A DNA stretch of 53,200 bases. Source: Selenomonadaceae bacterium. Its GTDB lineage: Bacteria; Bacillota; Negativicutes; Selenomonadales; Selenomonadaceae. A program made the translations under genes and the position numbers. Positions 1-50,804 of this stretch are shown here, in pieces. How positions within the stretch are numbered: the stretch's first letter is position 1; each line of letters begins with the position of its first letter. Location: contig JAFXTD010000052.1 of the NCBI GenBank assembly GCA_017535925.1, positions 1 to 53,200 on the forward strand, written 5' to 3'. The notes under the pieces are model-generated. The model did no database searches. It was not told where the DNA came from and worked only from the letters and a program-made list of their open reading frames with translations.

Positions 1-137
1 GTTGCGCCCAAAAGAAAAGTAGCAAAAGAAAAGGGCGTTAGTCCGGCGGATGAACATCCTGTTCATATCGCCGGCGGTCGTCATCCATGACGACCGGGTT
101 TTCACCAACCGCTACTTTTGAATTTACCAACAGCCCC
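1..137. repeat. MITE-like element, copy A (partial, inverted relative to copies B-D)
   Basis: The right end (about 117-137) reads TTTTGAATTTACCAACAGCCCC. It is the reverse complement of the left end of copy B at 7591, and similarity continues inward through a CGTCATCCATGACG palindrome-like stretch. It is followed by TA (138-139), which fits a TA target duplication. The other end lies outside the window. The interior has AAAAGAAAAGTAG motifs shared with the other copies. No coding potential is seen. Confidence 0.7.
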
Positions 138-161
138 TAGTTCCTACTTCCTAGTTCCTAC
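137..161. repeat. Heptanucleotide tandem repeat (CTAGTTC/CTACTTC)
   Basis: Three and a half 7-bp units (137-143, 144-150, 151-157, 158-161) lie directly between MITE copy A and the alaS ribosome binding site. This is one of several heptamer arrays in the window. Confidence 0.75.
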
Positions 162-178
162 AAAAGGAGGCAGATATT

Positions 179-2800: not shown

Positions 2801-2820
2801 TTTCGGTCAATCAATCAAAA

Positions 2821-2850
2821 AAATCCTCGACAAAGCGTCGGGGATTTTTC
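2821..2850 (+). terminator. Intrinsic terminator after alaS
   Basis: Stem AAATCCTCGAC (2821-2831), loop AAAGC, return arm GTCGGGGATTT (2837-2847, one G-T pair) running into a T-rich tail. It lies between convergent alaS and the redox operon and may serve both directions. Confidence 0.8.
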
Positions 2851-2867
2851 TTTTGCAGATTTAAATT

Positions 2868-3626: not shown

Positions 3627-3772
3627 CAGCCCAGCCCGATACACTCAAGACAAATGCGCGTTGCCTTCGAAAAGATTATCGACAATTCGCCGCGTTCAAT
3701 TCCGAACAAAATCATTGCCGCGCTTGCCAAAAAAATTATCAGTCTAATTGTTGAGAAGTTTTTCAAGTTCAT
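3626..3772 (-). CDS. Small CXXC-motif membrane protein (CD1871A-like)
   Basis: A 48-residue protein with one N-terminal hydrophobic helix (about residues 9-24) and a C-terminal CLECIGLG ending that contains a CXXC pair. Length, layout and ending fit my recollection of the clostridial CD1871A family of small CXXC proteins, found beside TlpA-like and 4Fe-4S membrane proteins. The ATG at 3772 lies inside the 3' end of the thioredoxin gene (29-bp overlap), and the stop overlaps the start of the polyferredoxin gene. This architecture makes a real co-translated gene likely despite its size. The function is not established. A thiol-disulfide relay between the two neighbours is an inference. Confidence 0.75.
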   Translation of the reverse strand: MNLKNFSTIRLIIFLASAAMILFGIERGELSIIFSKATRICLECIGLG

Positions 3773-4304: not shown

Positions 4305-4390
4305 GTTAATCATCTCCTTTGCAGATATTCTAACATTCGCCTTGAATAAGCGCAAGCAGGGGAATTGCGGCGCGGGCAGAATAAAAACAG

Positions 4391-4410
4391 GAATTAGTAA
4401 TTAGGAATGG
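4391..4410. repeat. Degenerate heptamer repeat (GAATTAG/TAATTAG) before csaB
   Basis: GAATTAG (4391-4397), TAATTAG (4398-4404) and a partial third unit occupy the position where the csaB ribosome binding site should be. The only purine-rich stretch (AGGAATGG) belongs to the repeat. Confidence 0.5.
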
Positions 4411-7571: not shown

Positions 7572-7590
7572 AATTAATTCCTCATTTCTA

Positions 7591-7730
7591 GGGTCTGTTG
7601 GTAAATTCAAAAGCAACGGTTGGCGAGTGCCCGACCGTCATGGATGACGCTGCAAAAGAAAAGTAGATTAAAAAATAAACGTCATTGAAACGCTCAATCG
7701 AAGCCGCCGATTGAATTTACCAACACACCC
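7591..7730. mobile_element. MITE-like element, copy B (complete, 140 bp)
   Basis: The ends are inverted: GGGTCTGTTGGTAAATTCAA on the left and the complement of GGGTGTGTTGGTAAATTCAA on the right. It is flanked by TA at 7589-7590 and 7731-7732, the duplication expected of IS630/mariner-type transposition. No frame inside encodes a transposase, so mobility would be in trans. The TA plus the first element base form the TAG stop of pilT. Confidence 0.75.
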
Positions 7731-8707
7731 TAATTCTCAATTCCCAATTGCTTCAACGCCGCGTCCATTGTCTGCATACCTTGTGCACGACCGCCCAATA
7801 TCACGTTCGGGAGTTGCATGTATTTGCCTTGACGAATCAGAGCTCGTGACGCAGGATTGGCGATTAAAACTTCCGCCGCGCAACGTCGACCGCTTGAAGT
7901 TTTGACAAGCTGTTGAGAAATTATCGCGCTGAATTCGTCGGCAAACAAATCTCGAATTGCATCGCGTCTGACAAGCGGGAACATTGTTTCGACGCGCATG
8001 GCAGTTTCCGCCGCCGAACGCGTGTGCAACGTCGCCAAAACCAACACGCCCGCTGCCGAAGCCTCAAGTGCCGCATGCATTGTTTCCGCGTCGCGTATCT
8101 CGCCGATTAATAAAACGTCGGGCATTTCGCGCATGGCAGTTCGAACAGCGTCCGCGAAGTTCAAAAAATCTTGTCCGAGTTCGCGTTGGCTTATGAAAGA
8201 TTTTTTTGCAACGTATTCAAATTCTATCGGGTCTTCAAGCGTCAACAGATGACACGGGCGAATTTTTATCAGCTCGTTCAAAAATGCGGCAAGCGTCGTT
8301 GATTTTCCCGAACCTGTCCTGCCTGTCACGAGGATTAAACCGTGCGCGGAATAGAAAAAATTTTTCAGTGCGGGCGGTGCGCCCAAATCATTGAGTGTCG
8401 GAATTTCTTTGGCGATAAGTCGAAAAGCAAGCGCGGGAAATTTTCTTTGATAATAGACGTTGACTCGGAAGCGGCGCGAAAGATTTTCCTCGACGTGTGA
8501 AAAATCAATCGCCAAATTTTTTTCGAGCTCCTCTTTGAGGCGCGGCGATAAAATTTCTTCCAAAAAGTTTTCGACTTCCCGCGCAGACAAAATTTCTCCC
8601 GCCGGAAAAATTTCTCCGTTCACACGAAAAAAAGGCGGCTGCCCGACCGTCAAATGAACATCCGACGCGTTGAGGCTCACCGCTTCTTGTAAAATTTTTT
8701 TGAGCAT
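7730..8707 (-). CDS. pilT: Type IV pilus retraction-type ATPase PilT
   Basis: Cytoplasmic hexameric secretion ATPase of 325 residues. Visible motifs are Walker A GRTGSGKST (about 130), the Asp box LLTLEDPIEF, Walker B DVLLIGEIRD and the His box TLHTRSA. Length and the absence of a long N-terminal domain favour PilT over PilB. The ATG at 8707 is preceded by AAGGAAG at a suitable distance. The 3' end is unusual: the last seven codons are a heptamer repeat (7731-7751) and the TAG stop is completed by MITE copy B. The native C terminus may therefore have been replaced. The PilT C-terminal region normally ends in a helix, and the present tail is KQLGIEN. Confidence 0.9.
   Translation of the reverse strand: MLKKILQEAVSLNASDVHLTVGQPPFFRVNGEIFPAGEILSAREVENFLEEILSPRLKEELEKNLAIDFSHVEENLSRRFRVNVYYQRKFPALAFRLIAKEIPTLNDLGAPPALKNFFYSAHGLILVTGRTGSGKSTTLAAFLNELIKIRPCHLLTLEDPIEFEYVAKKSFISQRELGQDFLNFADAVRTAMREMPDVLLIGEIRDAETMHAALEASAAGVLVLATLHTRSAAETAMRVETMFPLVRRDAIRDLFADEFSAIISQQLVKTSSGRRCAAEVLIANPASRALIRQGKYMQLPNVILGGRAQGMQTMDAALKQLGIEN
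7731..7751. repeat. Heptamer repeat forming the pilT 3' end
   Basis: TAATTCT, CAATTCC and CAATTGC are three 7-bp units that read as the last codons and stop of pilT on the minus strand. Confidence 0.55.
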
Positions 8708-8979
8708 TGAATTTCTTCCTTCAGACACGAACAAAAATTATCACAAAAATTTTTTCGCCGAGCGATTCGTCGCGATTGACTACCCAATAAAATTCGGCAG
8801 CGGGATTTATCGCCCAATATGTTCAAAAAAATACTGCGCGCATTTTGCAAATTATTTTTGATAAGCGTACCGCGTTCGTGCTCGGCGATAAAAGTGACGG
8901 ATTGCAAAACGTTCGCGGTGGACAACAGCTGTGCGCGGAATATTGTAATATGAATCGTCCAAGCCGTTTCCTCCGTTAT

Positions 8980-9032
8980 TTAGCTGTTAGCTGTTAGCGA
9001 TTAGCTGTTAGAAAAATTCTGACCACTGACCA
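8980..9032. repeat. Two adjacent heptamer arrays (TTAGCTG x4.5; CTGACCA x2)
   Basis: TTAGCTG at 8980, 8987 and 9001, with the variant TTAGCGA at 8994, then a partial unit. After a short A-rich spacer comes CTGACCA at 9019 and 9026. Two different 7-bp units lie side by side. Confidence 0.8.
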
Positions 9033-9039
9033 CTTTCTT

Positions 9040-9126
9040 TGGGCGAACAAAAGAAAAGTAGGTTCAATAAACAAAAATCATTGAAACGTTCAATCGAAGT
9101 CGCCGATTGAATTTACCAACACACCC
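9040..9126. mobile_element. MITE-like element, copy C (left end missing or replaced)
   Basis: The right part matches copies B and D through CATTGAAACG, CAATCGAAG and the terminal TTGAATTTACCAACACACCC, followed by TA (9127-9128). The left terminal inverted repeat is absent; heptamer arrays are found there instead. As in copy B, TA plus the outermost G form a TAG stop, here for the penicillin-binding protein gene. Confidence 0.65.
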
Positions 9127-11372
9127 TAATTTCTTCCTTTAGACGATTCGTCATCGAAGGAAGGCGCATTGTCAATCACGGGTTCAGGTTCCGGAACATG
9201 AACGGGTTCGGGTTCGCGGACAGGTTCGGGCTCTTGATAAACGGGCGCAGGTTCCGGCTCGCGAATCGGTTCGGGGGCGGGAGCAGGCTCAACGTAATCG
9301 GGCACACCTTCCGGCTTGCGCGTATAATCCGACTCTTGTTCACGTGAAGGTTCCGACTCACGTGAAGGTTCCGGCTCGTAATAATCTCTGCGCGGCGCAG
9401 GTTCTTCCTCGTAATAATCGCGGCGTGAAGATCGATTGTTGTCGCGGACTTCGTTTACAACATTTTTGCTTGAGCGTCTGTCTACAACCAAATCATCGAA
9501 GTCATGCGCGGGAACATTGAGCAAGGCGTTTTGCATGAAGTGGCTCCAAATTGTCGCGGGGAGGTCGCCGCCCGTAATTCCTTCAAGTTCGCTGTTGTCG
9601 TCGCAACCGAGCCACACGGAGGTAACGAGGTCGGGCGTGTATCCTACAAACCAAGCGTCGTGATAATCGCTGGTCGTGCCGGTCTTGCCTGCAGCGGGTC
9701 GCCCGATAGCCGCGCCTTTGCCCGTGCCTTTTGTGATAACGTCTTCCAACATGCTTGTTAAATCGGCAGCACTTTCGGGAGTGATAACCTGTCGTCCTTC
9801 GGGAACCACTTCATGAATAATGTTGCCGTTGCGGTCGAGGACTTTGGTTATCGCGACATGAGGAACATAAACGCCACTGTTTGCAAAAGTTCCGTAAGCC
9901 GAAGCAATTTCAAGAGGAGTGACGCCGCGTGTCAAGCCGCCGAGTGATACGGCAAGATTTGTGTCGTTCGGTTCGCCGCTCAAGACAAAAGTCGAAATGC
10001 CCATCTCTTGCGCGTAGTAAATCGCCTTGTCAATTCCGAGTGCCTGCGCGATTTTGACGGTGGGAACATTCATTGAGAAAATCGCAACGGTTCGGAGGGT
10101 GACATTGCCGCTGAAACGTCTGCTGTAATTTTGCGGAGACCAATCGCCAATTGTTATCGGGCTGTCTTCAATGACGGTGTCGGGTGTGTAACCGCTTTCA
10201 AGCCCGGCAACGAACACGAACGGTTTAAACGCGGAGCCCGGCTGACGTTCCGCCATGGTTGCACGATTAAATTGGTCTGTGCCTCGTCCGCCGACCATTG
10301 CTCTGATATAACCTGTCTTGGGTTCGATGGCGACGATTGCTCCTTGCGGCTGAACAATCCCGTTTACGTCTGTGTAGTATTCGGGCAGATAAATATTCAA
10401 AGCCTCTTCCGCCATGCGTTGCATATCCAAATCAATCGTCGTATAGACTTTCAAGCCTTCCTTGTAAACTGCATCCGCGCCGTATCTGTCGACGAGAAGT
10501 TGAGTGACGTATTCGATAAAATACATTGCGTCTTTGTGTTTTTCGGGAACGTTTTGAGGAGCAAGCACGAGTTCGGCATTTCGGGCGGCGGAAGCCTCGT
10601 TGTAGCTGATATAGCCGTAAGTCACCATTTGATTGAGGACGGTGTTGCGTCGTTCAATCGCGGCGTTTATGTTATTGAACGGCGAATAGTAATTCGGGCT
10701 CTTGGGTATGCCGGCAAGCATTGCGCATTCGCCGAGCGTCAAGTCCTCGACGTTCTTTCCGAAATAAGTTTTCGCCGCCGCCTGCACGCCGTAAGCTCCT
10801 TGACCGAAATAAATCTGATTGAGATAGAGCTCCAAAATTTCTTGCTTGGTGTATTGCTTTTCAAGTTGCAGAGCGAGGAAAATTTCTTGAATCTTGCGCT
10901 TGTAAGTTCTGTCTTGCGTGAGGTAAGCGTTCTTGGCAAGCTGTTGAGTTATCGTCGAGCCGCCTTCCGCAATTTCCTGCGAAATAATATTCGTGTAAGC
11001 GGCGCGAATCAAACCGCGAGGGTCAACGCCTTTGTGTTCGTAGAAGCGATTGTCCTCGATTGCGACGAAAGCGTTTTGAAGATTCATCGGGATTTGCTCA
11101 ATCTTGACGGGCACACGATTTTCCGTCGCGTGAATGATTGCAATTTCGTTGCCCGCCGAATCATAAATGTGACTCGACGCGGGCGGCAGAATATCTTTCG
11201 ACAAGTCCGCCTTGACGTTCATATTTGCCGTCACGAAACCGATACCGACCCCGACCGCCATCACGATTATAAAAATAATAAGTCCTATAAAAATTTTCAG
11301 GAACGTTGAAGATTTTTTCTTCGGCGCGCTCGGTTGAGGATTGCCGCCGCGTTCCAAATCTGTCCCGGTCAT
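9126..11372 (-). CDS. Class A penicillin-binding protein (PBP1A-type)
   Basis: Bifunctional peptidoglycan synthase of 748 residues, anchored by one N-terminal helix (about 25-50). The glycosyltransferase domain has EDNRFYEHKGVDPRG and GGSTITQQLAKNAYL. The transpeptidase domain has the SxxK box PGSAFKPF, the SxN box IFSMNVP and the KTG box AGKTGTTSDYHDAW. After about residue 625 follows a low-complexity tail of Glu-Pro and Arg/Ser-rich repeats (EPEPVREPEPVHVPEPEP), plausibly spanning the wall. ATG 11372 is chosen because AGGAGG lies just before it. The TAG stop is created at the junction with MITE copy C, so the natural tail may once have been longer. Confidence 0.94.
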   Translation of the reverse strand: MTGTDLERGGNPQPSAPKKKSSTFLKIFIGLIIFIIVMAVGVGIGFVTANMNVKADLSKDILPPASSHIYDSAGNEIAIIHATENRVPVKIEQIPMNLQNAFVAIEDNRFYEHKGVDPRGLIRAAYTNIISQEIAEGGSTITQQLAKNAYLTQDRTYKRKIQEIFLALQLEKQYTKQEILELYLNQIYFGQGAYGVQAAAKTYFGKNVEDLTLGECAMLAGIPKSPNYYSPFNNINAAIERRNTVLNQMVTYGYISYNEASAARNAELVLAPQNVPEKHKDAMYFIEYVTQLLVDRYGADAVYKEGLKVYTTIDLDMQRMAEEALNIYLPEYYTDVNGIVQPQGAIVAIEPKTGYIRAMVGGRGTDQFNRATMAERQPGSAFKPFVFVAGLESGYTPDTVIEDSPITIGDWSPQNYSRRFSGNVTLRTVAIFSMNVPTVKIAQALGIDKAIYYAQEMGISTFVLSGEPNDTNLAVSLGGLTRGVTPLEIASAYGTFANSGVYVPHVAITKVLDRNGNIIHEVVPEGRQVITPESAADLTSMLEDVITKGTGKGAAIGRPAAGKTGTTSDYHDAWFVGYTPDLVTSVWLGCDDNSELEGITGGDLPATIWSHFMQNALLNVPAHDFDDLVVDRRSSKNVVNEVRDNNRSSRRDYYEEEPAPRRDYYEPEPSRESEPSREQESDYTRKPEGVPDYVEPAPAPEPIREPEPAPVYQEPEPVREPEPVHVPEPEPVIDNAPSFDDESSKGRN

Positions 11373-11508: not shown

Positions 11509-13941
11509 ATGTTGAGCTTTTGTCCGTATTGCGGAACGAAGATTCTCAATCGCGAAGTGAAATTTTGCATGAGTTGCGGCAAATCGTTGGCAACTTTCAT
11601 GAACGACACGTCGATTGAAAAAGAACTTCAAAGGTGTCGAGAGTCTGCCGAAGAAGGCTACAGCTTGGCAAGCCGCAAATACGACGAAATTAAAAACGCG
11701 CTGACAGAAGAGTCGCGGCGATTGTCTTCAGCCGGTACCGAACAAATTCTTTTTCCGCGAATCAAAAGTACCGAGCTTGTCGACAAGCAAAAGGAAGACT
11801 TGCGCCGCCTTACTGACAGCGTTTCTTTGATTCAAGCCGACATAAAAGCTTTACACGAACGGCAGAAAGATTTTTCAATCGTTGTTTACGGGCGGACAAT
11901 GACGGGCAAGTCAACGCTTATGGAAATTTTGACACGAGGCAACGGCTCCTCAATCGGTAAAGGTTCGCAACGGACGACGCGGGACATTCGCGACTACAAA
12001 TGGAACGGCTTAAAGATAATTGACGTACCGGGCGTTTGTGCATTCGGCGGCAATGAAGACGAACGCTTTGCATTGGAGGCAGCGAAGGCGGCGGATTTGA
12101 TTTTGTTCCTGCTGACCGACGACGCGCCTCAACCCGACGAAGCAGAGAAATTGGCACAGCTGAAGAAACTCGGCAAACCGATTCTCGGCGTGATTAATAT
12201 CAAGGTGGCATTTCAAAATTCGCGGCGGGCTTTGAACTTGAGTCGCTTGAAAAAAAGATTGTCCGACACCGAAAAGACTGAAGCAATCCTCAATCAGTTC
12301 AAGGAGTACGGCAAACGCTGTGACCAAGATTGGCGCGGGATAAAATTTGTTGCAACGCATTTGCTTGCCGCCTATGAATCACACCCTTGCAGAGGCAACG
12401 ACGCCGAAATTTTCGCGGCAAGTAATTTCGTTGAAGTCGAAAATTTTATCTTGGACAAGGTGAAAAACGACGGACGGTTCCTGCGGATAAAAACTTTCGC
12501 CGACAGCGTGGCGGTTCCCATGAGCAAAATTATTTTGGCAATCTACGAGCACAGCGGCGGCGCGTTGCGTGAAAGTCGTCTTTGGCTCGAAAAGCAAAAT
12601 GAACTTTGGACTTGGCGCGAAGATTTTGTAAAGCGTGTGCAGAAAAAACTTAATGAGCTTTACGATGAACTTTCCGCGACGTTGAAAAGTGAAATTCAAA
12701 AGTTTGCCGAAACTCATTACGAGGACGAAAAGATAAATCAGACTTGGCCTGCTCACGTCAAGAGTTTGGGCTTGGACACGCGCTATGAAAATCTTTTGAA
12801 GCAACTGGCAGGCGAATGCGAACGCAAGCGCAAGACCTTAAGCGACGAACTTACGCAGGAAATGCAATACGCCTTCAGCGGCAACACCAAGACAAATATT
12901 GAATTGGAAGGCACGACGGCTTGGGGCGAATACGGTGCGGCACTGCTCGGAGGCGTTGGCGGCGTCGGAGGTTTCATTGCTGCGCGAGCAATCGGTTTTG
13001 CGTTCCCGCCTTTGGGAATTGCACTTGCCGCCGTCAGTCTTATCGGTTGGATTATTTCGGACAGCAAGGAGGAAAAAATTCGCAAGGCAAAAGCCAAACT
13101 CCGCGAGGATTTAACGCCGCCGAGTTTTGAAATGCTTGACAAAATGCACGGTCAAATCGTTGACATCTTCAACAAAGAAATTTTGGACAAGGGCATTGAC
13201 GACTTCGGCGCGTTGCTCGGCGATTATGCTCACATGTTGGCGAGGCTCGGCTATTCTCAAACGAAGATGGCGAGGAAATTGTTTGACGAATTCAGCGACC
13301 TCAATATCAAACTTTTTGAAGAGGCGATTGCTTACAAGGGCGCGGGTCTTATCTCTTCCGTCAGCGATATTGCGCGTGTGCCCGGCAAAAGCATGGTTGC
13401 CTTCGCCGAACGTTCGAACTTGAACAGGCAAGAACTTTCCGCGCTTTTGGAAGAAGAAATTTCCGTCGTGAATGCCGCAAGCAAATCGCCCGATGCCGTC
13501 AGAAAAATTTTGGGTTGCGACTTGAAAATCGAAACTTATCCGCTCGATTACGACACCGACAACGCAAAAGCCAAGCGCACTTATGCCGCCTTCCCGAAAG
13601 GCAAAGTCGACGCGACGAAATTTAAAATCGCTCAACAAATTGCGGGCGTCCCGATTATCGCGAATCTTCCCGCGCCGAATTCCGGCAAGCCTCCGACAAC
13701 TCACAAGATGAATTTCAAATTCGATTGCGGCAAAGACTTCGGCGAAGACTTTAAAATTGTCGACAAAATGTTCGAAGACAACGTTCACAGCAAATTTATT
13801 AAAGACAAGCTGGACGAAATTGAAATTAAAGCAAACAGATTGCGCGACGCCGACGCAATGAAAAAACTTTCTTACTATTGGCGAAGAGTCGGTCAAGACC
13901 GGAAGGCGGCGAGGTGCTTCAATCGCGCCAAAGATTTTTAA
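11509..13941 (+). CDS. Dynamin-like GTPase with N-terminal zinc ribbon (pair member 1)
   Basis: An 810-residue protein. A zinc ribbon (CPYCGTK ... CMSCGK, residues 5-25) and a helical linker precede a GTPase domain with P-loop GRTMTGKST (about 127), the switch DVPGVCAFGG, and an N-I-K segment (INIKVAF) where the usual NKxD would be. A long helical stalk follows, interrupted by a hydrophobic glycine-rich hairpin (about 485-525) that could insert into membrane, then more helices. Bacterial dynamin-like proteins remodel membranes and often occur as heterotypic pairs. Start ATG 11509 has GAGGTG in front. The second GTPase follows after 22 bases with the same leader. Exact role unknown. Confidence 0.8.
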   Translation: MLSFCPYCGTKILNREVKFCMSCGKSLATFMNDTSIEKELQRCRESAEEGYSLASRKYDEIKNALTEESRRLSSAGTEQILFPRIKSTELVDKQKEDLRRLTDSVSLIQADIKALHERQKDFSIVVYGRTMTGKSTLMEILTRGNGSSIGKGSQRTTRDIRDYKWNGLKIIDVPGVCAFGGNEDERFALEAAKAADLILFLLTDDAPQPDEAEKLAQLKKLGKPILGVINIKVAFQNSRRALNLSRLKKRLSDTEKTEAILNQFKEYGKRCDQDWRGIKFVATHLLAAYESHPCRGNDAEIFAASNFVEVENFILDKVKNDGRFLRIKTFADSVAVPMSKIILAIYEHSGGALRESRLWLEKQNELWTWREDFVKRVQKKLNELYDELSATLKSEIQKFAETHYEDEKINQTWPAHVKSLGLDTRYENLLKQLAGECERKRKTLSDELTQEMQYAFSGNTKTNIELEGTTAWGEYGAALLGGVGGVGGFIAARAIGFAFPPLGIALAAVSLIGWIISDSKEEKIRKAKAKLREDLTPPSFEMLDKMHGQIVDIFNKEILDKGIDDFGALLGDYAHMLARLGYSQTKMARKLFDEFSDLNIKLFEEAIAYKGAGLISSVSDIARVPGKSMVAFAERSNLNRQELSALLEEEISVVNAASKSPDAVRKILGCDLKIETYPLDYDTDNAKAKRTYAAFPKGKVDATKFKIAQQIAGVPIIANLPAPNSGKPPTTHKMNFKFDCGKDFGEDFKIVDKMFEDNVHSKFIKDKLDEIEIKANRLRDADAMKKLSYYWRRVGQDRKAARCFNRAKDF

Positions 13942-13963
13942 AACTTTTTGCGAGGTGAACGAC

Positions 13964-15745
13964 ATGGAAGAATTTAAGCTTGTCAAATTCACGAAGGAAG
14001 GCGCAAAACTTCTGCGCGAGGTCACCGACGAATTTAAGCACCTCAAGATTGACGCCTCACGCCTGCCGAAAAATTTTTCTGACGACGGCAGCAAAATCAA
14101 ATTGGTTTTTATCGGACAATACGGCGCGGGCAAGTCGAGTATCATCAAAATGCTCACGGGTGAGGAGGTTGCAATCGGCGCGGCTATCACGACGCAAAAT
14201 TTCACGCCCTACGAATGGAACGGCTTGGAAATTATCGACACGCCCGGCATTCACACTTTGCTCCGCCCCGACCACGACGAGATAACTTACGAACAAATAA
14301 ATCATGCCGCGCTGTTGATTTTCGTCGTCACGAACGAGGGTTTCAGTCAACGCATGGGCGATCATTTCCGCACTCTTGCAATCAAACAGAAACGAGCCGC
14401 CAATATGGTTTTGGTCGTCAACAAGATGGACAGGACTGCCCTCGGCAATGTTCCCGAACAGCAGGAAGTCATTTACGAGGACTTGAAAAAAGTTACGAAG
14501 CCTCACGACCCGAAAAATTTATACCTGTCGTTTTTGGACACGGCGGCTTATTTCGAGGCACTTGACGAGGAAGATAAAGAAATCAAGGCGGAACTTTTTG
14601 AGTTGAGCGGGCACGATATTTTTGTCGAGAATTTAAATCGGTTCGTCGCGGAAAAAGGTGTCCTTCAAAAAATAAATCTGCCGCTGAACACAATCGCCGC
14701 CGAAATCAGAAATGCCTCACTTGGTTTGAGTGACGAGGCGAAAGCCGATTTGGAAGCTTACATTAAAACCGTCCGCAAGCGCAAAGAAATTTTCGTCGAC
14801 GGAAAAAATAATTGTTTGGCGGAAGTCGAAGAGCTTGTCGAAAGTTTCAAAAGTGCGCTCAAACGTTACGGCTTGGAAGTCGCCGAAGAAGTTTTAGATC
14901 AAAAGAGCGAGGAAGCTGCAAAAAAAATCATGAACGGCGCAGACGAACGTGTAAAGAAAATTGCCGCCGAATACGCCGCGCAGATTGACACTTGCACAAA
15001 AAATTTCATCGCGAAGACCGAAGCCGATATTAAAGCTTACGAGAGTTCGGATTTTGTTAAGCAGGTCAACGCGAATTTGCAAAAGCGTTTCGCCGCGCAA
15101 GGTGACGGTTCCGGCAACGGCATCGCTCAAGCTGTGGGCGGAGGCGGTGTGGCAGCCGGAGCACTTCTCGCCGGACAAGGTGCTCAATTCTTTGCGCAAT
15201 TCGCGATACCCGCCATTACCCCGCTCGGTCATTTCGTCGGCACGGCGGTCAATGTCGGTGTTCGAGTTGCCTTTGCTGATGAGTTGGGTTTGTTCACGGG
15301 CTTTATCGCAAATCAAGCGGGGAATTTTGTCAAGTCGTTGCCGTTCTTCCAAGCGGAATTGACTGCCGGACAAAGAGTCGCCTCGTTCATTGCGGGCAAT
15401 GCAAAAATACTCGGCGCGGGTTTGGCAGTTGCGGGAACGTTTTTTTCTCTCTGGCAAACCTATCGTGACGGAGAGAAAGCTGAAGAGCGCGAGCGGCAAC
15501 GTCGAGCGGCACGAGAAGATATAACGTCTGACTTCAACGAGGCTGCCGAAAAAATCGGAAAGAAAATGCTTGACACCGTGAATCAATGGCTGAAAGAAAA
15601 AGTTGACCCCGTTATCGCGTCGACCTTCGACGATAAAATAAAAGCGGTCGAGGCTCAAATGGCGAACGAAAAAATCAAGAGCGCGAAACTTTCCGAACTG
15701 CTCAAGCGAACCGAAAATCTTATCGGCGCGATTCAAAAAGCTTGA
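13964..15745 (+). CDS. Dynamin-like GTPase (pair member 2)
   Basis: A 593-residue protein without a zinc ribbon. The GTPase motifs are complete: P-loop GQYGAGKSS (51-59), DTPGIHTL (about 93), NKMD (about 150). The C-terminal half is helical, with a central stretch of small and hydrophobic residues (about 370-490, rich in Gly/Ala/Phe) that may be a membrane paddle, followed by a charged coil. ATG 13964 is preferred over the GTG at 13955 because GAGG lies 8 bases before it. It is co-transcribed with the larger GTPase and followed by a terminator, so the two form a self-contained operon. Membrane remodelling or defence roles are inferences from other bacterial dynamin pairs. Confidence 0.8.
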   Translation: MEEFKLVKFTKEGAKLLREVTDEFKHLKIDASRLPKNFSDDGSKIKLVFIGQYGAGKSSIIKMLTGEEVAIGAAITTQNFTPYEWNGLEIIDTPGIHTLLRPDHDEITYEQINHAALLIFVVTNEGFSQRMGDHFRTLAIKQKRAANMVLVVNKMDRTALGNVPEQQEVIYEDLKKVTKPHDPKNLYLSFLDTAAYFEALDEEDKEIKAELFELSGHDIFVENLNRFVAEKGVLQKINLPLNTIAAEIRNASLGLSDEAKADLEAYIKTVRKRKEIFVDGKNNCLAEVEELVESFKSALKRYGLEVAEEVLDQKSEEAAKKIMNGADERVKKIAAEYAAQIDTCTKNFIAKTEADIKAYESSDFVKQVNANLQKRFAAQGDGSGNGIAQAVGGGGVAAGALLAGQGAQFFAQFAIPAITPLGHFVGTAVNVGVRVAFADELGLFTGFIANQAGNFVKSLPFFQAELTAGQRVASFIAGNAKILGAGLAVAGTFFSLWQTYRDGEKAEERERQRRAAREDITSDFNEAAEKIGKKMLDTVNQWLKEKVDPVIASTFDDKIKAVEAQMANEKIKSAKLSELLKRTENLIGAIQKA

Positions 15746-15752
15746 AATTTTT

Positions 15753-15777
15753 TCCGACGGCGGTCGGATTTTTTTTT
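15753..15777 (+). terminator. Intrinsic terminator after the dynamin-like pair
   Basis: TCCGAC (15753-15758), loop GGCG, GTCGGA (15763-15768), then nine T residues. Confidence 0.8.
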
Positions 15778-15804
15778 GTGCTTTTCGGCGGCGGCGGTTA
15801 TAAT
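15776..15804 (+). promoter_or_regulatory. Probable addB promoter
   Basis: TTGTGC (15776-15781), 17-bp spacer, perfect TATAAT (15799-15804), 30 bases before the addB start. The -35 box lies in the tail of the preceding terminator. Confidence 0.55.
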
Positions 15805-15833
15805 TTGTAAAAAATTCAGCGGAGGGAAATTTG

Positions 15834-18800
15834 ATGGTTGAAATTATAATCGGGCGGGCGGGCGTCGGAAAAACTTTCGAGTGTTTGCGACAGGCAAAAA
15901 AAATTCTTGAGACCGAGCCGCTCAAGACCGAAATAATTTTTTTGTTGCCGGCTTATCAAACGTATCGTGCGGAATTGGAATTGGCGGCGTTGACGGGCGG
16001 AGCACTCAACACGCGCATGAACAGTTTCAATCGATTCGCAAGACAAATCCTCGACGAAATCGGAGGAGGATTGACACCGCGCATTTCTGAAATCGGTCGA
16101 AGGCTTCTCTTGAGAAAAATTTTGCTTAGACGAGACAAGGCGGGCGATTTAAAATTTTTCGTGCGCGCCGCCAAGCAACACGGCTTTGCAGAAATTTTGT
16201 CGGAAGAATTGAAAGAGCTGGGCACCTATTCAATCGACGCGGACAAATTGGACGAGGCGATCGACAAAATCGAAGACGCCGAACTCAAAGACAAGTTGCA
16301 CGACTTGAAAATTTTCGCGGAAGATTTCAAAGCGGCTTTGGCGGACAAACTCACCGACGACGAAAATTTATTGGCGCGGGCGGCGGAGTTCATGGAGCAA
16401 TCGCCCTCAATCGGCAGCGCGGAAATTTTTATCGACGGTTTTATTTTCTTCGACCCGCAACAACGAAATTTTTTGCGCAAGCTCTTCACCTGCGCGAGGA
16501 ACGTTCATATCACTTTGCCGATGGATACAAACCTCAACAGCCGCGAAAATCTTTCGGAGGTCGGGATTTTCAATCGCGCCTTTCAAACTTTCCGCATGCT
16601 GAAAAAATTTTCGGAGGAGGTCGGCGTCGAATTCAAAATCACACGCCTCGACAAGCCGCGCAGATTTTTATCGGAGCCTTTGAAAATTTTGGAGCAAAAA
16701 CTTTTTGAAAGGCAATGCGTAATGCGAAATGCGCAATTTCAATGCGTAACGCGAAATGCGCAATGCGTAATGGATTTAAAAATCGTCGCGGCGGTCAATC
16801 GTCGAGCGGAAGTCGAATACGTTGCGCGAGAAATTTTGCAGCTTGTCAAAAAAAATTATCGGCTGCGCGAAATCGGAATCGTTGCCCGTGACGAAAATTA
16901 TTTTTCGCTGATAAAACCGATATTCGAAATTCACGCGATACCATTTTTTATCGACAAGAAACGTGCGGCGGGAAATCATCCTTTGGCGGAGCTGATTCGT
17001 TCGGCTTTGGAAGTGTTGCGCGGCTGGCGAAAGGAATCTGTCTTCCGTTGCCTGCGAACGGGATTTTTCGACGTGCCTCAAGAGGAAATCGACCTGCTGG
17101 AAAATTACGTTATCGAGTTCGGCTTGAAGGGAGCGGCGACTTGGCAGAAGACTTGGGATTTGCGGCGGGTGAAGTCTTTGGATTATGCCGAACGCCCCGC
17201 CGAATCCGCAGAGCTTGAATACCTCGACCGAATCAACGCGATAAGGAAACAATCCGTTGCGCCGCTGATAAATTTTTCGGAACGCGTGAAGGCTTCGGAA
17301 AATGAAGTCGTCGAATTGGCAACGGCATTGTTCAAGCTGCTTGAGGAGCTTAACGTCTACGAAAAACTTTCGGAATGGTCGCAGGCGGAAGAACTTCGCG
17401 GCAACCTCGCGCTGTCGAGGGAGCATTTAAAAATTTGGGACGACGTGATAACTTTGCTTGAGCAAGTCGTCGACGCGCTGGGCGAAGACACAATCACACG
17501 AACGGAATTTGAATCGATAATCGGCGAAGGACTTGACGCTTTGGAAATGTCTTTGATACCGCCGGGCTTGGACGAGGTGACGGTCGCGCAATTCGACCAG
17601 AACTCTTTGCAAAATTCGCGAGCGATATTCGTCTTGGGCTTCGACTCGGAAAATTTTCCTCGAAAGGTCTCGGAAAAAAATTTACTCAACGACGCTGACA
17701 GAGTGCGGCTCAACGAGGCTGAACTTGAAATTTCATTGGGCGGCAAGGAACAGGCTTTGGCAGAAAAATTTTTGATTTATCGCGGATTGACAGAGGCGCG
17801 GGAGCTGTTGTACTTGTCGTATCCTCTTGCCGATTCGAAGGGCGAAAAAATTTCGGCGTCGTCGTTGCTGAATAAAATTCGCACAATCTTCCCGAATGCC
17901 GCGACGGAAACGGTTGAACTTGACGTGTTGCAAAATTTGGGCGAAGAAATTTTCACGGCGGGCGAACGAAGATTATCGGAGGAGACGGCTCACAGACTTT
18001 ACGCGCCGTCAAAAAAAATTCAAGCAACCGTCACGCGCTTTGAAAATTTCAACGAGTGCCCCTTCAAATATTTTTCGCGCTACGGGCTCAATCTTCAAGA
18101 GCGTGTCGAATACAAAATTCAGACGCCGGATATCGGAAGCATCCTTCACGCCGTCATGAGTCGTTTCGGTCGCGAATTGAAATCGGAAAATCGGCAATGG
18201 TCTTCGGTCGGTGAGGTTGAACTTAACGGGCGCGTCGAAAAAATTTTGGACAACATAACGCCGCGCCTCCACAACAAAATTTTATTGAGCACGAAGACTT
18301 TGGAACATCGCCGCGAGCGCATAAAAAAAGTTGCCGTCGAATCTTTGAGCCGCTTGATTGAATTGGATAAGGTGAGCGAATTTAATCCGACGATTTTCGA
18401 GGCGGGCTTTCATGACGAGAAAAAAATTTCCGACGTAACGATTGATTTAAACGGGCGCATTGACCGAATCGACTTGAGCAGTGACGGAAAATATTTTCTG
18501 ATTGTCGACTACAAGACCGGCAAGGCGAGCCTCAATTTGAAAAAAATTTTTCACGGCTTGAGCTTGCAGTTGGCGATTTACCTCGGCGCGGCGAAAAATT
18601 TTGAGGAAGTCGGCGGGCGCGAGGCGGGTGCCATGCTTTACTGCCTGCTGAAAATTTCCAACAAGAGCGGCAGAGACGATTCGGCGGCTTCGTTGGAGGC
18701 GGAGAAAGAATTGAAAATGCCGGGACTGATTCGCCTCGACGAAGAAATTAAAAACGCCGTCGACAGCACGGAAAAATTTGTTGCCTTCAAGAAAGATAAT

Positions 18801-19043
18801 CTGGTTGACCGCGAAGACTTTCAAACGATTATCGACTACGCGGAAAAGATTTTGGAGACGACCGCCGAAAAAATTTTGAGCGGCAATATCGAAGTCAAGC
18901 CCGCGAAATTTTCCGACGACGACGCCTGCAAGTATTGCCTCTATTCCGCGCTGTGCAATTTCGACAGAGCGACCGACGAAACTTTGACGGCGACCGAACT
19001 CAAGAAGGAGGAAATTATTTCGGCGATGAAAGAGACCCTTTAA
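15834..19043 (+). CDS. addB: ATP-dependent helicase/nuclease subunit AddB
   Basis: Subunit of the AddAB enzyme that processes double-strand ends for recombination. 1069 residues. It begins with the P-loop GRAGVGKT. The C-terminal RecB-type nuclease has IDRIDLSSDG and IVDYKTGKA, and iron-sulfur cysteines are placed as in the family: one in NECPFKYFS and three in CKYCLYSALC near the end. Start ATG 15834 has GGAGG 8 bases upstream. A block of 7-bp repeats (16714-16768) is embedded in frame and encodes a Cys/Arg/Asn/Gln-rich insert around residues 294-313, which looks foreign to the protein. The addA partner, usually adjacent, is not in the window; rpmB follows instead. Confidence 0.9.
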   Translation: MVEIIIGRAGVGKTFECLRQAKKILETEPLKTEIIFLLPAYQTYRAELELAALTGGALNTRMNSFNRFARQILDEIGGGLTPRISEIGRRLLLRKILLRRDKAGDLKFFVRAAKQHGFAEILSEELKELGTYSIDADKLDEAIDKIEDAELKDKLHDLKIFAEDFKAALADKLTDDENLLARAAEFMEQSPSIGSAEIFIDGFIFFDPQQRNFLRKLFTCARNVHITLPMDTNLNSRENLSEVGIFNRAFQTFRMLKKFSEEVGVEFKITRLDKPRRFLSEPLKILEQKLFERQCVMRNAQFQCVTRNAQCVMDLKIVAAVNRRAEVEYVAREILQLVKKNYRLREIGIVARDENYFSLIKPIFEIHAIPFFIDKKRAAGNHPLAELIRSALEVLRGWRKESVFRCLRTGFFDVPQEEIDLLENYVIEFGLKGAATWQKTWDLRRVKSLDYAERPAESAELEYLDRINAIRKQSVAPLINFSERVKASENEVVELATALFKLLEELNVYEKLSEWSQAEELRGNLALSREHLKIWDDVITLLEQVVDALGEDTITRTEFESIIGEGLDALEMSLIPPGLDEVTVAQFDQNSLQNSRAIFVLGFDSENFPRKVSEKNLLNDADRVRLNEAELEISLGGKEQALAEKFLIYRGLTEARELLYLSYPLADSKGEKISASSLLNKIRTIFPNAATETVELDVLQNLGEEIFTAGERRLSEETAHRLYAPSKKIQATVTRFENFNECPFKYFSRYGLNLQERVEYKIQTPDIGSILHAVMSRFGRELKSENRQWSSVGEVELNGRVEKILDNITPRLHNKILLSTKTLEHRRERIKKVAVESLSRLIELDKVSEFNPTIFEAGFHDEKKISDVTIDLNGRIDRIDLSSDGKYFLIVDYKTGKASLNLKKIFHGLSLQLAIYLGAAKNFEEVGGREAGAMLYCLLKISNKSGRDDSAASLEAEKELKMPGLIRLDEEIKNAVDSTEKFVAFKKDNLVDREDFQTIIDYAEKILETTAEKILSGNIEVKPAKFSDDDACKYCLYSALCNFDRATDETLTATELKKEEIISAMKETL
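16714..16768. repeat. In-frame heptamer array inside addB (AATGCGN)
   Basis: AATGCGT, AATGCGA, AATGCGC, a 6-bp AATTTC, AATGCGT, AACGCGA, AATGCGC, AATGCGT. It is read through in frame, giving a segment like QCVMRNAQ repeated with variation. No stop is created in the addB frame. Confidence 0.85.
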
Positions 19044-26951: not shown

Positions 26952-26975
26952 AAAAAATCTCCCTTCGGTCGATTT

Positions 26976-27007
26976 TTAGTGATTAGTGGTTAGTGGTTAG
27001 TGGTTAG
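26976..27007. repeat. Heptamer array (TTAGTGG) overlapping the ecfA 3' end
   Basis: TTAGTGA at 26976, TTAGTGG at 26983, 26990 and 26997, and a partial unit. On the minus strand the units give the final codons and stop of the ECF ATPase gene. Confidence 0.85.
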
Positions 27008-27799
27008 AATTCTTTCTGCCTCGTCGAGTGTCAAAGCCGATTCGTTGAGTTTGAGCGTTCGCAAGAGTTGAGTTACGGGTGGCGGCTCCAAACCTGCGCG
27101 AGCCAAAATTTTTTCTTCGGCAAAAAGTTCACGGGGCGTTCCGATAAAAATAATTTCTCCTTGAGCGAGGACGACGACGCGATTTGCAAAGCGGGCAATG
27201 TCTTCCATGTTGTGCGAGACCAAAATTATCGTGACGCCCGAAATTTTTATTGCGCCGAAAATTTCTTTCAGCAGGTGTTCTTTGGCGGGCGGGTCGAGCC
27301 CTGCGGTCGGTTCGTCGAGGATTAAATATTTCGGTTTGAGTGCAAGAATCCCCGCGATAGCTGCGCGCCGCCTCTGTCCGCCCGAAAGTTCAAACGGCGA
27401 AACTTTTTTCAACGACTCGTCCAAGCCGACCTGCCGCATCGCCTCATCGACACGCGCAGAAACTTCAGCCTCACTCAAGCCGAAATTTTTCGGGGCGAAG
27501 GCAATATCACTTTCAACGGTTTCTTCAAAGAGTTGGTGTTCGGGATATTGGAAGACAATCCCGACGAGGCGACGAATTTTTTTATCGTCGACGCTCAAGC
27601 CGTCAATCTCAATCGAGCCGCTCTGCAATTTAATCAAGCCCGCGATAATTTGAATCAACGTCGACTTGCCGGAGCCGGTGTGACCCGCTATCGCCAAGAC
27701 CTCGCCTTGAGCAACGTCGAACGAAATTTTTTTCAGCGCGATTTTTTCAAAGGGCGTGCCCGTCATGTAAGTGTAGCTCACATCTTTAACGACAATCAT
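26990..27799 (-). CDS. ecfA: Energy-coupling factor (CbiO/EcfA-type) ABC ATPase
   Basis: A 269-residue ATP-binding subunit of an ECF importer for vitamins or metals. Walker A GHTGSGKST (about 38), Q-loop FQYPEHQLFEE, signature LSGGQRRR, Walker B YLILDEPTAGLDP and H-loop SHN are all present. ATG 27799 has AGGAGG at 7 bases. The transmembrane EcfT and a substrate-binding S component are not nearby, so it must work with subunits encoded elsewhere. The last residues (LTTNH) are encoded by a heptamer repeat, which suggests a rewritten C terminus. Confidence 0.9.
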   Translation of the reverse strand: MIVVKDVSYTYMTGTPFEKIALKKISFDVAQGEVLAIAGHTGSGKSTLIQIIAGLIKLQSGSIEIDGLSVDDKKIRRLVGIVFQYPEHQLFEETVESDIAFAPKNFGLSEAEVSARVDEAMRQVGLDESLKKVSPFELSGGQRRRAAIAGILALKPKYLILDEPTAGLDPPAKEHLLKEIFGAIKISGVTIILVSHNMEDIARFANRVVVLAQGEIIFIGTPRELFAEEKILARAGLEPPPVTQLLRTLKLNESALTLDEAERILTTNH

Positions 27800-34315: not shown

Positions 34316-34352
34316 AAAATCCCTTCGGCGCAAAAGTCGGAGGGGTTTTTTC
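34316..34352 (+). terminator. Intrinsic terminator after the double-glycine protein
   Basis: AAATCCCTTCGGC, loop GCAAAA, GTCGGAGGGGTTT with G-T pairs, then a T run. Confidence 0.75.
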
Positions 34353-34376
34353 AATTGGGAATTGGGAATTGGGAAT
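34352..34376. repeat. Heptamer array (GAATTGG)
   Basis: CAATTGG (34352), GAATTGG (34359, 34366) and a partial unit, just after the terminator. Confidence 0.8.
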
Positions 34377-34446
34377 GAAAAATTTTTTTGCCAAGCGTGT
34401 AACAAAAAATCATAAAAAAAATTTTAAAGGCGATTGATTATTTTGG

Positions 34447-46956: not shown

Positions 46957-47142
46957 AATTAGGAATTAGGAATTAGGAATTAGGTGTCAGCTGTCAGCTG
47001 TCAGCTGTCAGGAAGGTGAAAGTCTGAAAGCTCTAAGCTGAAAGCTGAAAGCTCTAAGCTGAAAGCTGAAACCTGAAAGCTGAAAGCTGAAAGCTGAAAG
47101 CTGAAAGCTGAAAGCTGAAAGCTCTAAGCTGAAAGCTAACAA
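46957..47142. repeat. Compound heptamer block: AATTAGG x4, GTCAGCT x3.7, CTGAAAG x17
   Basis: Three different 7-bp units in succession: AATTAGG at 46957-46984, GTCAGCT at 46986-47011, and 17 contiguous units at 47024-47142, mostly CTGAAAG with variants CTCTAAG, CTGAAAC and CTAACAA. It ends just before the ribosome binding site of the AAA ATPase gene. Confidence 0.95.
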
Positions 47143-47160
47143 CTAAAAAGGAGTTTTTTC

Positions 47161-48342
47161 ATGAACTTGCAAGGATTAATCGTTTGCCGCAATCTGCTTG
47201 ACGAAAAAATTTTTGACGGCGCGGCTGACGAATTTGAAATTGCCTCACTGCTTGTCGAACGGGCGGAACGGCTCGGCTTGAGCGGCAATCTTTATCGGGC
47301 GTATTTGATTTATCTTTTGGCGCACGAGCCGAATTTAATTTCAACGACGCTTGAAACGAACGGCGGTAAAATCGGCGAGAGCCTCCGCGAAATTTTTATT
47401 CACGACGTGGAAATTTTGTTGCCGATATTGCGCGGCGAACTTTGGAGCAATTTAAAAATCTTGAACCTCTATAAGCCGACCGTTAAAAATTCTGACGAGG
47501 CGTTCAATGAACTTTTGAAGTGCTTGGAAAATTTGTTTGACGCCGAAAAAATTTCCGTTGCCTTTATCGAACACTGGCGACGCTTCGGCTACGGCGACAT
47601 TGCCACTTACCGCGCCTTCCGCTGGGATAAAGAACTTGTCGGCGTTCGTCATTTTGAAACGATTCGCCTTGAGGATTTAATCGGCTACGTTCACCAAAAA
47701 GAACTTCTCAAAGGCAACACGACCGCTTTTGTCGAAGGCAAGCCCGCCAACAATGTTTTGCTCGTCGGGGCACGCGGCACCGGAAAATCTTCGGGCGTCA
47801 AAGCTCTGGTCAACGAATATTATCAGCAAGGACTGCGCCTCGTTCAAATCACAAAGCCGCAACTGAAAGCCCTGCCCGAAATCATGGAGACGTTGCGAAA
47901 ATTTTTGAGCAAGCGGTTTATAATTTTCTTGGACGATTTATCTTTCGAGGAGTCGGAGGCGGAATATAAATATTTGAAATCGGCGATTGAAGGCGGCGTC
48001 GAATCGCGTCCCGAAAATGTTTTAATCTACGCAACGAGCAATCGGCGGCATTTGATTCGCGAAACTTGGCGCGACCGTTCTGACGAGCAAGACGAACTTT
48101 ATCGGGACGACAGCGCGAACGAAACAATTTCCTTGTCCGACCGCTTCGGCTTGATAATTCACTACTACGCGCCGACGCAGGCTGAATATCTTGAAATAAT
48201 TCGCAGCATGTTGAAACGTCGAGGCATTGAACTTGATGCGGAAACATTGAGGCTTGAGGGCTTGCGTTGGGAAATGTCGCATTCGGGACGCAACGGGCGC
48301 ACGGCTCAACAATTCGTCAATCACTACTTGGGACAACGATAA
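47161..48342 (+). CDS. DUF815-family AAA ATPase
   Basis: A 393-residue cytoplasmic ATPase of unclear function. The N-terminal about 190 residues are helical. The AAA core has Walker A GARGTGKSS (about 203), Walker B IIFLDDLSFEE (about 260), a sensor ATSNRRHLIRE (about 295) and the C-terminal SHSGRNGRTAQQFVNHYL typical of DUF815. ATG start with AAGGAG 8 bases upstream. The 186-bp heptamer block lies directly in front, where a promoter or leader would be expected, so expression may depend on repeat number. It is convergent with the metallophosphoesterase gene. Confidence 0.85.
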   Translation: MNLQGLIVCRNLLDEKIFDGAADEFEIASLLVERAERLGLSGNLYRAYLIYLLAHEPNLISTTLETNGGKIGESLREIFIHDVEILLPILRGELWSNLKILNLYKPTVKNSDEAFNELLKCLENLFDAEKISVAFIEHWRRFGYGDIATYRAFRWDKELVGVRHFETIRLEDLIGYVHQKELLKGNTTAFVEGKPANNVLLVGARGTGKSSGVKALVNEYYQQGLRLVQITKPQLKALPEIMETLRKFLSKRFIIFLDDLSFEESEAEYKYLKSAIEGGVESRPENVLIYATSNRRHLIRETWRDRSDEQDELYRDDSANETISLSDRFGLIIHYYAPTQAEYLEIIRSMLKRRGIELDAETLRLEGLRWEMSHSGRNGRTAQQFVNHYLGQR

Positions 48343-48430
48343 AAAAAATGCCGACGTGAGTCGAACACAGAGGCTTGAACGAAAATTTGAATTGCATACA
48401 CAGGTGTCGAATGCGCCTGAAATACCGCAA

Positions 48431-49657: not shown

Positions 49658-50055
49658 TCCAAACCTCTCGCAAGCCGCGCAGAATATTTTTCGGGCAGGC
49701 GGCAAATCTTTCCTCCGCTCGTGAAGACGTTCGTGGAAGTGCCTTCCGCCAAAATTTTTTCCTCGCCGCGTTTGCGAATCTCATAACGAAATTTCATCTT
49801 CGCCTTAGTCAAAGCTTCCGCCGCCGTCAAAATTTCCAACTCGTCATCAAATTTCGCGGGCGCATGAAATTTCGCATTGACCTCGATAATCGGAAACAAA
49901 ATTCCGTCGCTCATCAATTCGTTCAAGTCAATTCCGAGCTCACGCAAAAATTCAACGCGCCCCGTTTCGAACCAGCGAATATAATTTGAGTGGTGCACAA
50001 TTCCAAACGTGTCCGTATCAAAAAATTTCACGCGATATTTTGTCGTAACAATCAT
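49654..50055 (-). CDS. YbgC/FadM-type acyl-CoA thioesterase
   Basis: A 133-residue hot-dog-fold thioesterase. The active-site motif is FDTDTFGIVHHSNYIRWFE, with the catalytic Asp at the second D. The rest follows the family pattern of a central beta sheet (KFRYEIRKRGEEKILAEG). ATG 50055 is preferred over the GTG at 50064 because GAGG lies right before the GTG and 8 bases before the ATG. It forms an overlapping pair with the metallophosphoesterase gene. Confidence 0.9.
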   Translation of the reverse strand: MIVTTKYRVKFFDTDTFGIVHHSNYIRWFETGRVEFLRELGIDLNELMSDGILFPIIEVNAKFHAPAKFDDELEILTAAEALTKAKMKFRYEIRKRGEEKILAEGTSTNVFTSGGKICRLPEKYSARLARGLE

Positions 50056-50207
50056 TGCCTTCACCTCAACGAAAGTATATCACATTGGCATTCGCCATTC
50101 TATAATCGCAACAAGAAAAATTCATCCGATAATCTGTCGGGTACTTTTTTAGCAGAATTGGCTAACTATGTGACAGATTAAGAAATTGTTCAAAGCCGCC
50201 GCGTCGA

Positions 50208-50804
50208 TTATGATTCAGTCATCAAAGATTTGTCCGCTTCGCCGGGCGTCTGCTTTATAATATCCTTATAAGTTACACCGGCTGTTATACGATTAATGGT
50301 CGCACGGCTCACGTTAAATTTTTTTGCCAATTCTCTGCTGTTCAAACCATCAGAATTTTCGCGGATATAAACAATCTCTTGAGCGTTAAGTTTTGCGTAA
50401 TGACTTTGTGTGTGCCACGATAAACTTTGATTAATCCGAGTTTATATCGAGTGACCCAATCAAGATTTTGTCGCCGTTTCGGTGGTCGACTTCCCGTTTA
50501 TTTTCGGGATTGTCGATAAAAGCTTGAGCAACGAGAATGTGAACTCCAAAGTTTTTAGAGCGTGTTGGTAAATTCAAAAGCAGCAGTTGGCGATTGTCAG
50601 CTGTTAGCGATTAGCTGAATAGAATTTTCTAACAGCTAACAGCTAATAACTAACAGCTACTTTGGGTGCCGGCAAAGAAAAAGTAGATTCAATAACAAAA
50701 AGTCATTGAAACGCTCAATCGAAGCCGCCGATTGAATTTACCAAAAGACCCCAGCCAATGTGAATTTGACCGCCGACTTTATCGGTTCGGACAATTGAAT
50801 CCAT
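50208..50804 (-). pseudogene. Decayed NUMOD/HNH homing-type endonuclease, interrupted by MITE copy D
   Basis: It starts at ATG 50804 with an AAAGGAGCGATTTTT leader almost identical to that of the intact HNH gene at 52092. After a short start (MDSIVRTDKVGGQIHIGWG) the frame runs into MITE copy D. Beyond it are VHILVAQAFIDNPENKREVD and HRNGDK (HNH metal site), then a frame change (NLDWVT), and a C-terminal helix-turn-helix SRELAKKFNVSRATINRI, matching the same region of the intact paralogue (ALARKFNVSKNTI). The gene is clearly inactive. Confidence 0.75.
50558..50752. mobile_element. MITE-like element, copy D (195 bp) carrying heptamer repeats
   Basis: Left end GAGCGTGTTGGTAAATTCAA preceded by TA (50556-50557). 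Right end is the complement of GGGGTCTTTTGGTAAATTCA. The interior contains two facing heptamer arrays (GTCAGCT/GTTAGCG units, then AACAGCT units), which could form a hairpin, and the AAAGAAAAAGTAG and CATTGAAACGCTCAATCG parts shared with copies B and C. It is inserted in the dead HNH gene. The right flank is not TA, so the duplication is imperfect. Confidence 0.7.

Follow-up and report, generated by a model that had tools for sequence, protein, structure and literature searches.

Tandemly repeated heptamers are known from several groups of bacteria, those of Calothrix under the name STRR. Earlier interpretations of dispersed bacterial heptamers include G-quadruplexes, sites for an RNA-binding protein and products of slippage. 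For slippage, a polymerase preference for 7-nt loops has been hypothesised (Mrazek 2007, cited in PMC4679880 and in PMC4692102). The best match to the locus described here is found in Xanthomonas and Nostoc, for which an arm layout of the G-rich heptamers GGGAATC and GGGGA(C/T)T has already been published (Rehm et al., 2015; PMC4692102). According to that study, the Xanthomonas heptamers are dispersed, about 90% intergenic and most often four units long. In both genera the inverted pairs have a convergent orientation, with the nearer ORF positioned 5' of the repeat independent of the orientation of this ORF. The study describes one G-tract motif per genome studied, proposes G-quadruplexes and reports 83% of the sites as common to two species (PMC4692102).

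Direct repeats of TAACTGA represent a second system and have been described in Beggiatoaceae, some Cyanobacteria and Bacteroidetes (MacGregor, 2015; PMC4679880). Like the repeats analyzed here, they are reported upstream of start codons in two to six copies, with indels between two Cyanothece strains mostly in 7-nt steps and with mixed heptamers in Microcystis. The same account describes one favoured unit, related heptamers that are rarely repeated and few repeats with a canonical ribosome-binding site (PMC4679880). The Calothrix heptamers and GTGATTA of Helicobacter pylori are cited in PMC4692102 as tandem heptamers that were not characterised further; GTGATTA is a rotation of TTAGTGA, which is present in the genome studied here (canonical AATCACT). 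For DRT10, a preprint describes a telomerase-like synthesis of tandem repeats with a fixed length of 9 nt, which needs a reverse transcriptase (PMC12632851).

The window, the whole stretch of 53,200 nucleotides that was analyzed, is contig 51 of a genome (G000) of 2.59 Mb (2,589 kb) in 76 contigs, whose completeness of 91% sets the scope of the gene-absence results given below. The host, a gut bacterium, probably belongs to the Selenomonadaceae, judged from its relatives: one gene is 97% identical at the protein level to that of the nearest named relative, an 'uncultured Selenomonadales bacterium' (L009), and further relatives are labelled Selenomonadaceae, several of them of ruminant origin. 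For comparison we used a close relative, G066 (about 95% identical in aligned blocks, range 90-98%), and a genus search over 66 genomes including G000. Genes were called by the longest-ORF rule.

The arrays identified in the window (Table 1) bear out the original prediction's list of sites with two exceptions: its site 4391 is weak (about 2.9 imperfect copies), and its site 7731 (TAATTCTCAATTCCCAATT) is unsupported, as no TRF row appeared there at score 30. Two more exact two-copy rows, at 34495 and 42598, are near chance, and Rfam gave no match in the window at gathering score. A MITE-like repeat with ends like GGGGCTGTTGGTAAATT occupies positions 1-132, 7589-7742 and 9034-9129, has dozens of partial matches in G066 and often adjoins or splits heptamer arrays.

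Table 1. Heptamer arrays and associated features in the window.
Feature	Position	Strand	Remarks
Period-7 array CTAGTTC/CTACTTC	136..161		directly 3' of MITE-like repeat end (1-132), directly 5' of AAAAGGAGG; absent from G066
Weak array	4389..4408		identical copy in G066
G-rich arm TTAGCTG, then C-rich arm CTGACCA	8978..9034		absent from G066
AATGCGN element	16712..16772		in frame inside 1070-aa ORF 15831-19043; G066 lacks the element, its frame there is intact
C-rich array CTAACCA (TTAGTGG on + strand)	26976..27009	-	upstream of gene 26013-26951
Fixed ribosome-binding-site module TCGACCGAAGGGAGATTTT	26954..26972	-	between array and start codon of gene 26013-26951
G-rich array AATTGGG	34351..34378		
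Composite array AATTAGG x4, TGTCAGC x4, AAGCTGA x about 17	46957..47137	+	stops directly upstream of the SD of DUF815 gene 47161-48342
C-rich array CTAACAG	50629..50659		degenerate TTAG arm on its left

With a minimum of 8 matched bases, the window contains 12 exact runs for period 7 (1.45 expected), none for periods 5, 8 and 9, and 7, 4 and 4 for periods 3, 4 and 6. Arrays in G000 were sampled over 453 kb of the 2,589 kb; 400 kb of this, outside the window, consisted of 20 stretches from six contigs, which were picked for length and were known via AATTAGG matches. When at least 10 matched bases were required, the 400-kb sample had 101 exact runs for period 7 and a shuffled copy a single one, with 0-6 runs for each of periods 2-6 and 8-13. 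Periods 14 and 21 were strongly raised (49 and 47), and periods 15, 18, 24 and 27 slightly (7-15). Chains of a 4-mer with at least 4 copies numbered 224 at step 7, compared with 0, 1, 5, 0 and 0 at steps 5, 6, 8, 9 and 10 and 0 after shuffling; the step-7 chains mostly have 3-6 copies. The sharp 7-bp periodicity of G000 is genuine. The excess over the neighbouring periods, on which the original prediction had staked itself, is present (101 versus 3 and 1 at periods 6 and 8 in 400 kb), and the period is indeed fixed inside this genome.

The idea of a different unit at each site holds in part: many units exist, but the 101 arrays of the 400-kb sample represent only 21 canonical units, the top four of which account for 57 arrays. 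Most units combine a fixed core with variable bases (TTAG-NNN, GGAA-NNN, AATGCG-N), and AATTAGG can also be read as TTAGGAA. Four successive TTAGNNN units matched G000 281 times (overlapping matches counted), the backwards control 6 times. Stop codons on both strands were present in 65 of 110 arrays, fourfold the 16.3 expected from shuffled units. For the C-rich strand, 71 arrays contained stops (25.8 expected), while the G-rich strand alone was near expectation (78 versus 69.5). The C-strand excess stays when the 41 distinct units of five genomes are each counted once (19 versus 7.9 expected). As TTAG/CTAA cores carry stops on both strands, at least three copies at step 7 stop translation in every frame, and all three forward frames are stopped by 53 of 85 elements, versus 22.9 expected under a shuffle null that ignores the period. 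Not all arrays conform, as 45 of 110 are without both-strand stops. Taken together, unit families and stop-codon bias show that the sequence is free only to a limited extent.

The arrays are found mainly between genes: 93 of 117 lie in gaps, 18 inside called ORFs, which make up 0.87 of the sample, and 6 lack a gene on one side. They occur singly or in pairs, a pair consisting of a G-rich arm, a short linker and a C-rich arm. In the two-array clusters of five genomes, the order was GC in 64 cases, CG in 0, GG in 5 and CC in 4; counting neighbours within all G000 clusters, larger ones included, gave GC 29, CG 1, GG 4 and CC 1. Single arrays outside ORFs (24 arrays in ORFs were set aside) were distributed accordingly, with G-rich arrays nearer to the left gap edge 41 times and to the right one 12 times, and C-rich arrays nearer to the right gap edge 25 times and to the left one 17 times (Fisher p 3e-4). 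Exceptions make up 29 of these 95 arrays, and the C arrays alone merely lean (25 to 17). All gap types follow one rule: the G-rich strand begins at the ORF edge and points into the gap. We read the arrays as arms of an intergenic element, with the G-rich arm at the left and the C-rich arm at the right edge of the gap. Stop-codon ends have 157 array edges within 60 nt, and 105 of these edges fall between -20 and +9 nt; this evidence is partly circular because a stop-rich array ends any frame entering it. A distance of 10-29 nt separates the array's other edge from 68 of the 108 start codons in the vicinity, leaving room for an SD.

The predicted likeness to cyanobacterial heptamers is upheld; Nostoc has this layout. 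With the Xanthomonas and Nostoc systems, as described in PMC4692102, G000 has in common the period-7 excess, the mostly intergenic location, few units per array, inverted pairs in one order and a G-rich strand starting near an ORF edge. It differs in its many unit families, in 43 of 110 arrays without GG in the unit, in fast turnover, in a fixed SD module and in a period-8 relative. The likeness we claim is one of layout. G-tract units suited to G-quadruplexes, which belong to the published explanation and not to the layout, do not describe the arrays of G000 in general. In contrast to the TAACTGA system, many related units are repeated (21 in 101 arrays) and the arrays abut SDs. Among open-licence papers, our literature searches found none on intergenic tandem repeats in Selenomonadaceae and none on Shine-Dalgarno sequences together with tandem repeats in Negativicutes.

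The best explanation, to which we assign a probability of about one half, is that the heptamer runs would be fast-changing arms of a dispersed intergenic element. It would join the observed period, order, place and unit bias with the step changes, the block swap and the module linkage described below. Several counts speak against it: the 45 of 110 arrays without both-strand stops, the near-expectation stops on the G-rich strand, all-frame stops in no more than 53 of 85 elements, the 18 of 117 arrays inside ORFs, the 29 of 95 edge exceptions, the one CG neighbour pair, and a species with the module and no array (G044, below). Such an element would tend to fill the spacer from the stop codon of one gene to the ribosome-binding site of the next. 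Replication slippage by 7 bases could grow, shrink and homogenise the arrays and thereby spread mutations through them, and non-allelic conversion or re-insertion may at times replace arms in blocks. Selection would keep the layout rather than the sequence: stops in all frames where coding ends and, before the start codon, a clean SD with no stray SD-like G-rich sequence. Slippage does not account for a step of 7 in place of 5 or 10; steps of 7 and 8 shift the frame with each unit, as would 5 and 10.

Slippage could also act on its own. If the arrays were neutral heptamer microsatellites, formed by slippage favouring 7-nt loops and surviving only where genes tolerate them, the sharp period, the changes by whole units, the location mostly in gaps and the patchy occurrence among species would follow. 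Neither the G-then-C order (64 to 0) nor the both-strand stop bias is predicted by neutrality, and the same applies to the swap of two arms at one site, the period-8 relative and the tie to a fixed module, so that we regard this explanation as rather unlikely.

To follow the turnover of the proposed intergenic element, we compared 18 G000 clusters whose flanks were both anchored in G066. Seven of them are the same or nearly so, one shows a change in copy number, one is partly shared, one is replaced by another family and eight are absent, two of the latter falling in one replaced block. Each of the nine G066 clusters anchored in this way is matched by a G000 cluster, in one case from another family. 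In the family replacement at L048 8158-8228 (compared with L132), identical flanks enclose two arms of AATTAGG type in G000 and two of AATGCGT type in G066. Changes in 7-nt steps, as originally proposed, were found twice: the three tandem copies of one segment at L033 8016-8366 have arms differing by whole units, and the array at L048 6806 has about 6 units in G000 and about 2 in G066. The layout is kept and the wording changes, and layout seems to outweigh wording.

Spread of one sequence, which the original prediction had rejected, does take place. Chains of TTAG units (excluding TTAGGA) number 40 in 453 kb of G000 and 2 in 330 kb of G066, or 88 and 6 per Mb, compared with 90 and 61 per Mb for GGAAT/C chains and 26 and 39 per Mb for AATGCG; the TTAG units are a lineage burst in G000. 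One pair of elements on different contigs is 95% alike over 77 bp, linker included, and the 19-nt module described below recurs in 24 of 66 genomes. Furthermore, the linker GAAGGTGAAAGTCTGAAA is shared by composite TGTCAGC-/AAGCTGA-type blocks at six places in two species. These are the composite array of the window, contigs C29, C32 and C58 of G000, and contigs C211 and C173 of G040, with the block on C211 being 95% alike over 146 bases. An array precedes the DUF815 gene in 4 of 30 species read (60 genomes matched, 30 fetched), each time with another unit. AATTAGG arrays were also seen at the end of contig C7 and the start of C32 in G000, and at the starts of G013:C39, G052:C23 and G056:C16. 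Since this affects several assemblies, the assembly may break at such arrays and the counts may be too low.

A fixed component of the system is the 19-mer TCGACCGAAGGGAGATTTT, which in the window stands before the glycosyltransferase-like gene 26013-26951. We found it as an exact match in 24 of the 66 genomes of the genus (backwards control 0), with 20 copies in G000. All module loci sampled (30 of 30) have a start codon no more than 9 nt downstream. When one array criterion is applied on all sides, 19 of the 20 copies in G000 and 20 of the 28 in other genomes have an array in front of them, compared with 35 of 350 other genes of G000 (p 1e-16 for the G000 copies); a stricter array criterion gave 18, 15 and 29, respectively. 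The module was first noticed beside arrays, which concerns 3 of the 20 exact G000 copies, and the other 17 were obtained via the pattern alone. The 48 distinct module loci include 16 that form seven groups of orthologues; in each group the module is retained in 2-4 species and the arms differ, and in one group the module stands without an array in G044 (L218). At L044 11543, G000 and the orthologous gene of the more distant G035 have element and module, and G066 has another SD, which would reflect either loss in G066 or repeated gain. Downstream of the module lie ordinary genes, among them those for EF-Ts, histidyl-tRNA synthetase, ThiC, porphobilinogen deaminase, adenosylhomocysteinase, nickel hydrogenase and MotB, with 4 of the 19 genes covered by the Pfam scan (of 20 downstream of G000 modules) lacking a match. 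With its changing arms at orthologues, the module offers a natural series for studying the role of the arms in translation and the reason for a step of 7.

The claim is confined to this specific 19-mer, since a general leader of A-tract, SD and T-tract was not enriched with arrays in G000 (5/50 versus 20/303 without array, p 0.37); the corresponding numbers were 0/24 versus 10/243 in G066, 3/32 versus 2/82 in G190 and 0/25 versus 10/125 in G199. We do not claim an RNA structure for the module: its fold of -6.3 kcal/mol (z -1.6) is equalled by 11 of 200 shuffles, and one compensatory variant (2/37, in a set retrieved largely through exact matching) adds too little. For phages, an exact-match search of viral_contigs gave 0 hits, and Rfam returned only miRNA-family matches far below gathering scores for 15 of the 20 G000 module loci. 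In open-licence papers we did not find the exact 19-base ribosome-binding-site module 3' of heptamer arrays in print, and the single match to its inner 13 letters was an aptamer study, by its listing unrelated.

Combining module and arms, we tentatively consider a more specific and less certain version of the intergenic element, a self-renewing cassette. It might consist of a fixed translation-start module and, in front of it, two polar heptamer arms that are repeatedly rewritten, with period, order, stops and place kept and a wording that is each species' own, in one group also of 8 letters, and could serve housekeeping genes as all-frame stop and ribosome-binding spacer.

Insertion offers another route to such copies, if a mobile palindromic MITE-like element with heptamer arms, in some copies with a ribosome-binding site, moved between genes. 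The eight of 18 anchored G000 clusters absent from G066, together with counterparts for 9 of 9 G066 clusters, fit this idea, as do the 95%-alike pair with its linker at unlinked loci, the element with module at L044 11543 where G066 has another SD, and the dispersal of the module over 24 of 66 genomes. We still judge it unlikely: no terminal sequence is constant across families, and the sites read show no clear target-site duplication, the flank comparisons with G066 giving one possible 6-bp duplication by eye (L034 13253) and otherwise unclear results. Moreover, orthologues carry element and module in the same interval with different arms, an interval that repeated insertion would need to hit exactly.

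A structural element, with the arms forming a G-quadruplex or an RNA hairpin or terminator, is very improbable despite the inverted pairs and the existence of G-tract units, as the pairing advantage of an element's own arms disappears within families and 43 of 110 arrays have no GG. Over all 29 pairs, own arms paired better than arms of other elements (-20.1 versus -15.7, permutation p 0.015), and 20 of the pairs were of one family (10.9 expected). Within families, own arms reached -25.2 and those of other elements -26.9 (p 0.94, n=20), indicating that the arms share a family and not a matching partner. The nine mixed-family pairs paired weakly (-3.7 to -16.0).

Two enzymatic origins were rejected as well. 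A reverse-transcriptase origin (telomerase-like or DRT10-like) finds no RVT_1 (PF00078) match in G000 at 91% completeness; among array-rich genomes, PF00078 matched 0 times in G039, G040 and G056 and twice in G061, and it occurs in 21 of the 66 genomes of the genus, which are incomplete. For a REP/RAYT system, the Y1 transposase PF01797 is likewise at 0 in G000 at the same completeness and occurs in 7 of 66 genomes. As general explanations, G-quadruplexes, pairing between arms, REP-type transposases and reverse transcriptases have all lost weight through these tests.

Returning to the arms of the intergenic element, the fixed period of the original prediction holds within G000 and not beyond the species. 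In G199 we observed 28 overlapping matches to TTAGNNNN at step 8, which correspond to 19 sites by our own count from the match list (control 0), and in G190 9 matches (control 3); altogether, such matches are present in 3 of 12 genomes searched. The 8-bp repeats of G199, for example TTAGGTGG and TTAGGTTG, have the paired layout of the period-7 elements and occur alongside period-7 families, as seen in stretches that, like four stretches of G190, were picked around period-8 matches. Many units in one layout together with an 8-bp relative separate layout from sequence, which makes the earlier ideas about dispersed heptamers testable.

Ten genomes of the genus were sampled for exact period-7 arrays. 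G039 yielded 7 (40 kb) and G025 4 (7 kb), G033 and G036 had a single one each, and none turned up in 40 kb each of G003, G055, G064, G018, G048 and G034, where a looser scan gave at most 1 weak cluster. TTAGNNN chains are rare in other genera of the family, with any found in 5 of 30 genera, G000's genus counted. In the phylum, they occur in 18 of 198 other genomes (79 matches versus 6 in the control). A minor observation concerns L020, a locus of G199: successive stretches at 12366-18922 resemble one part of the window's gene 20981-22099, as if the gene had multiplied there.
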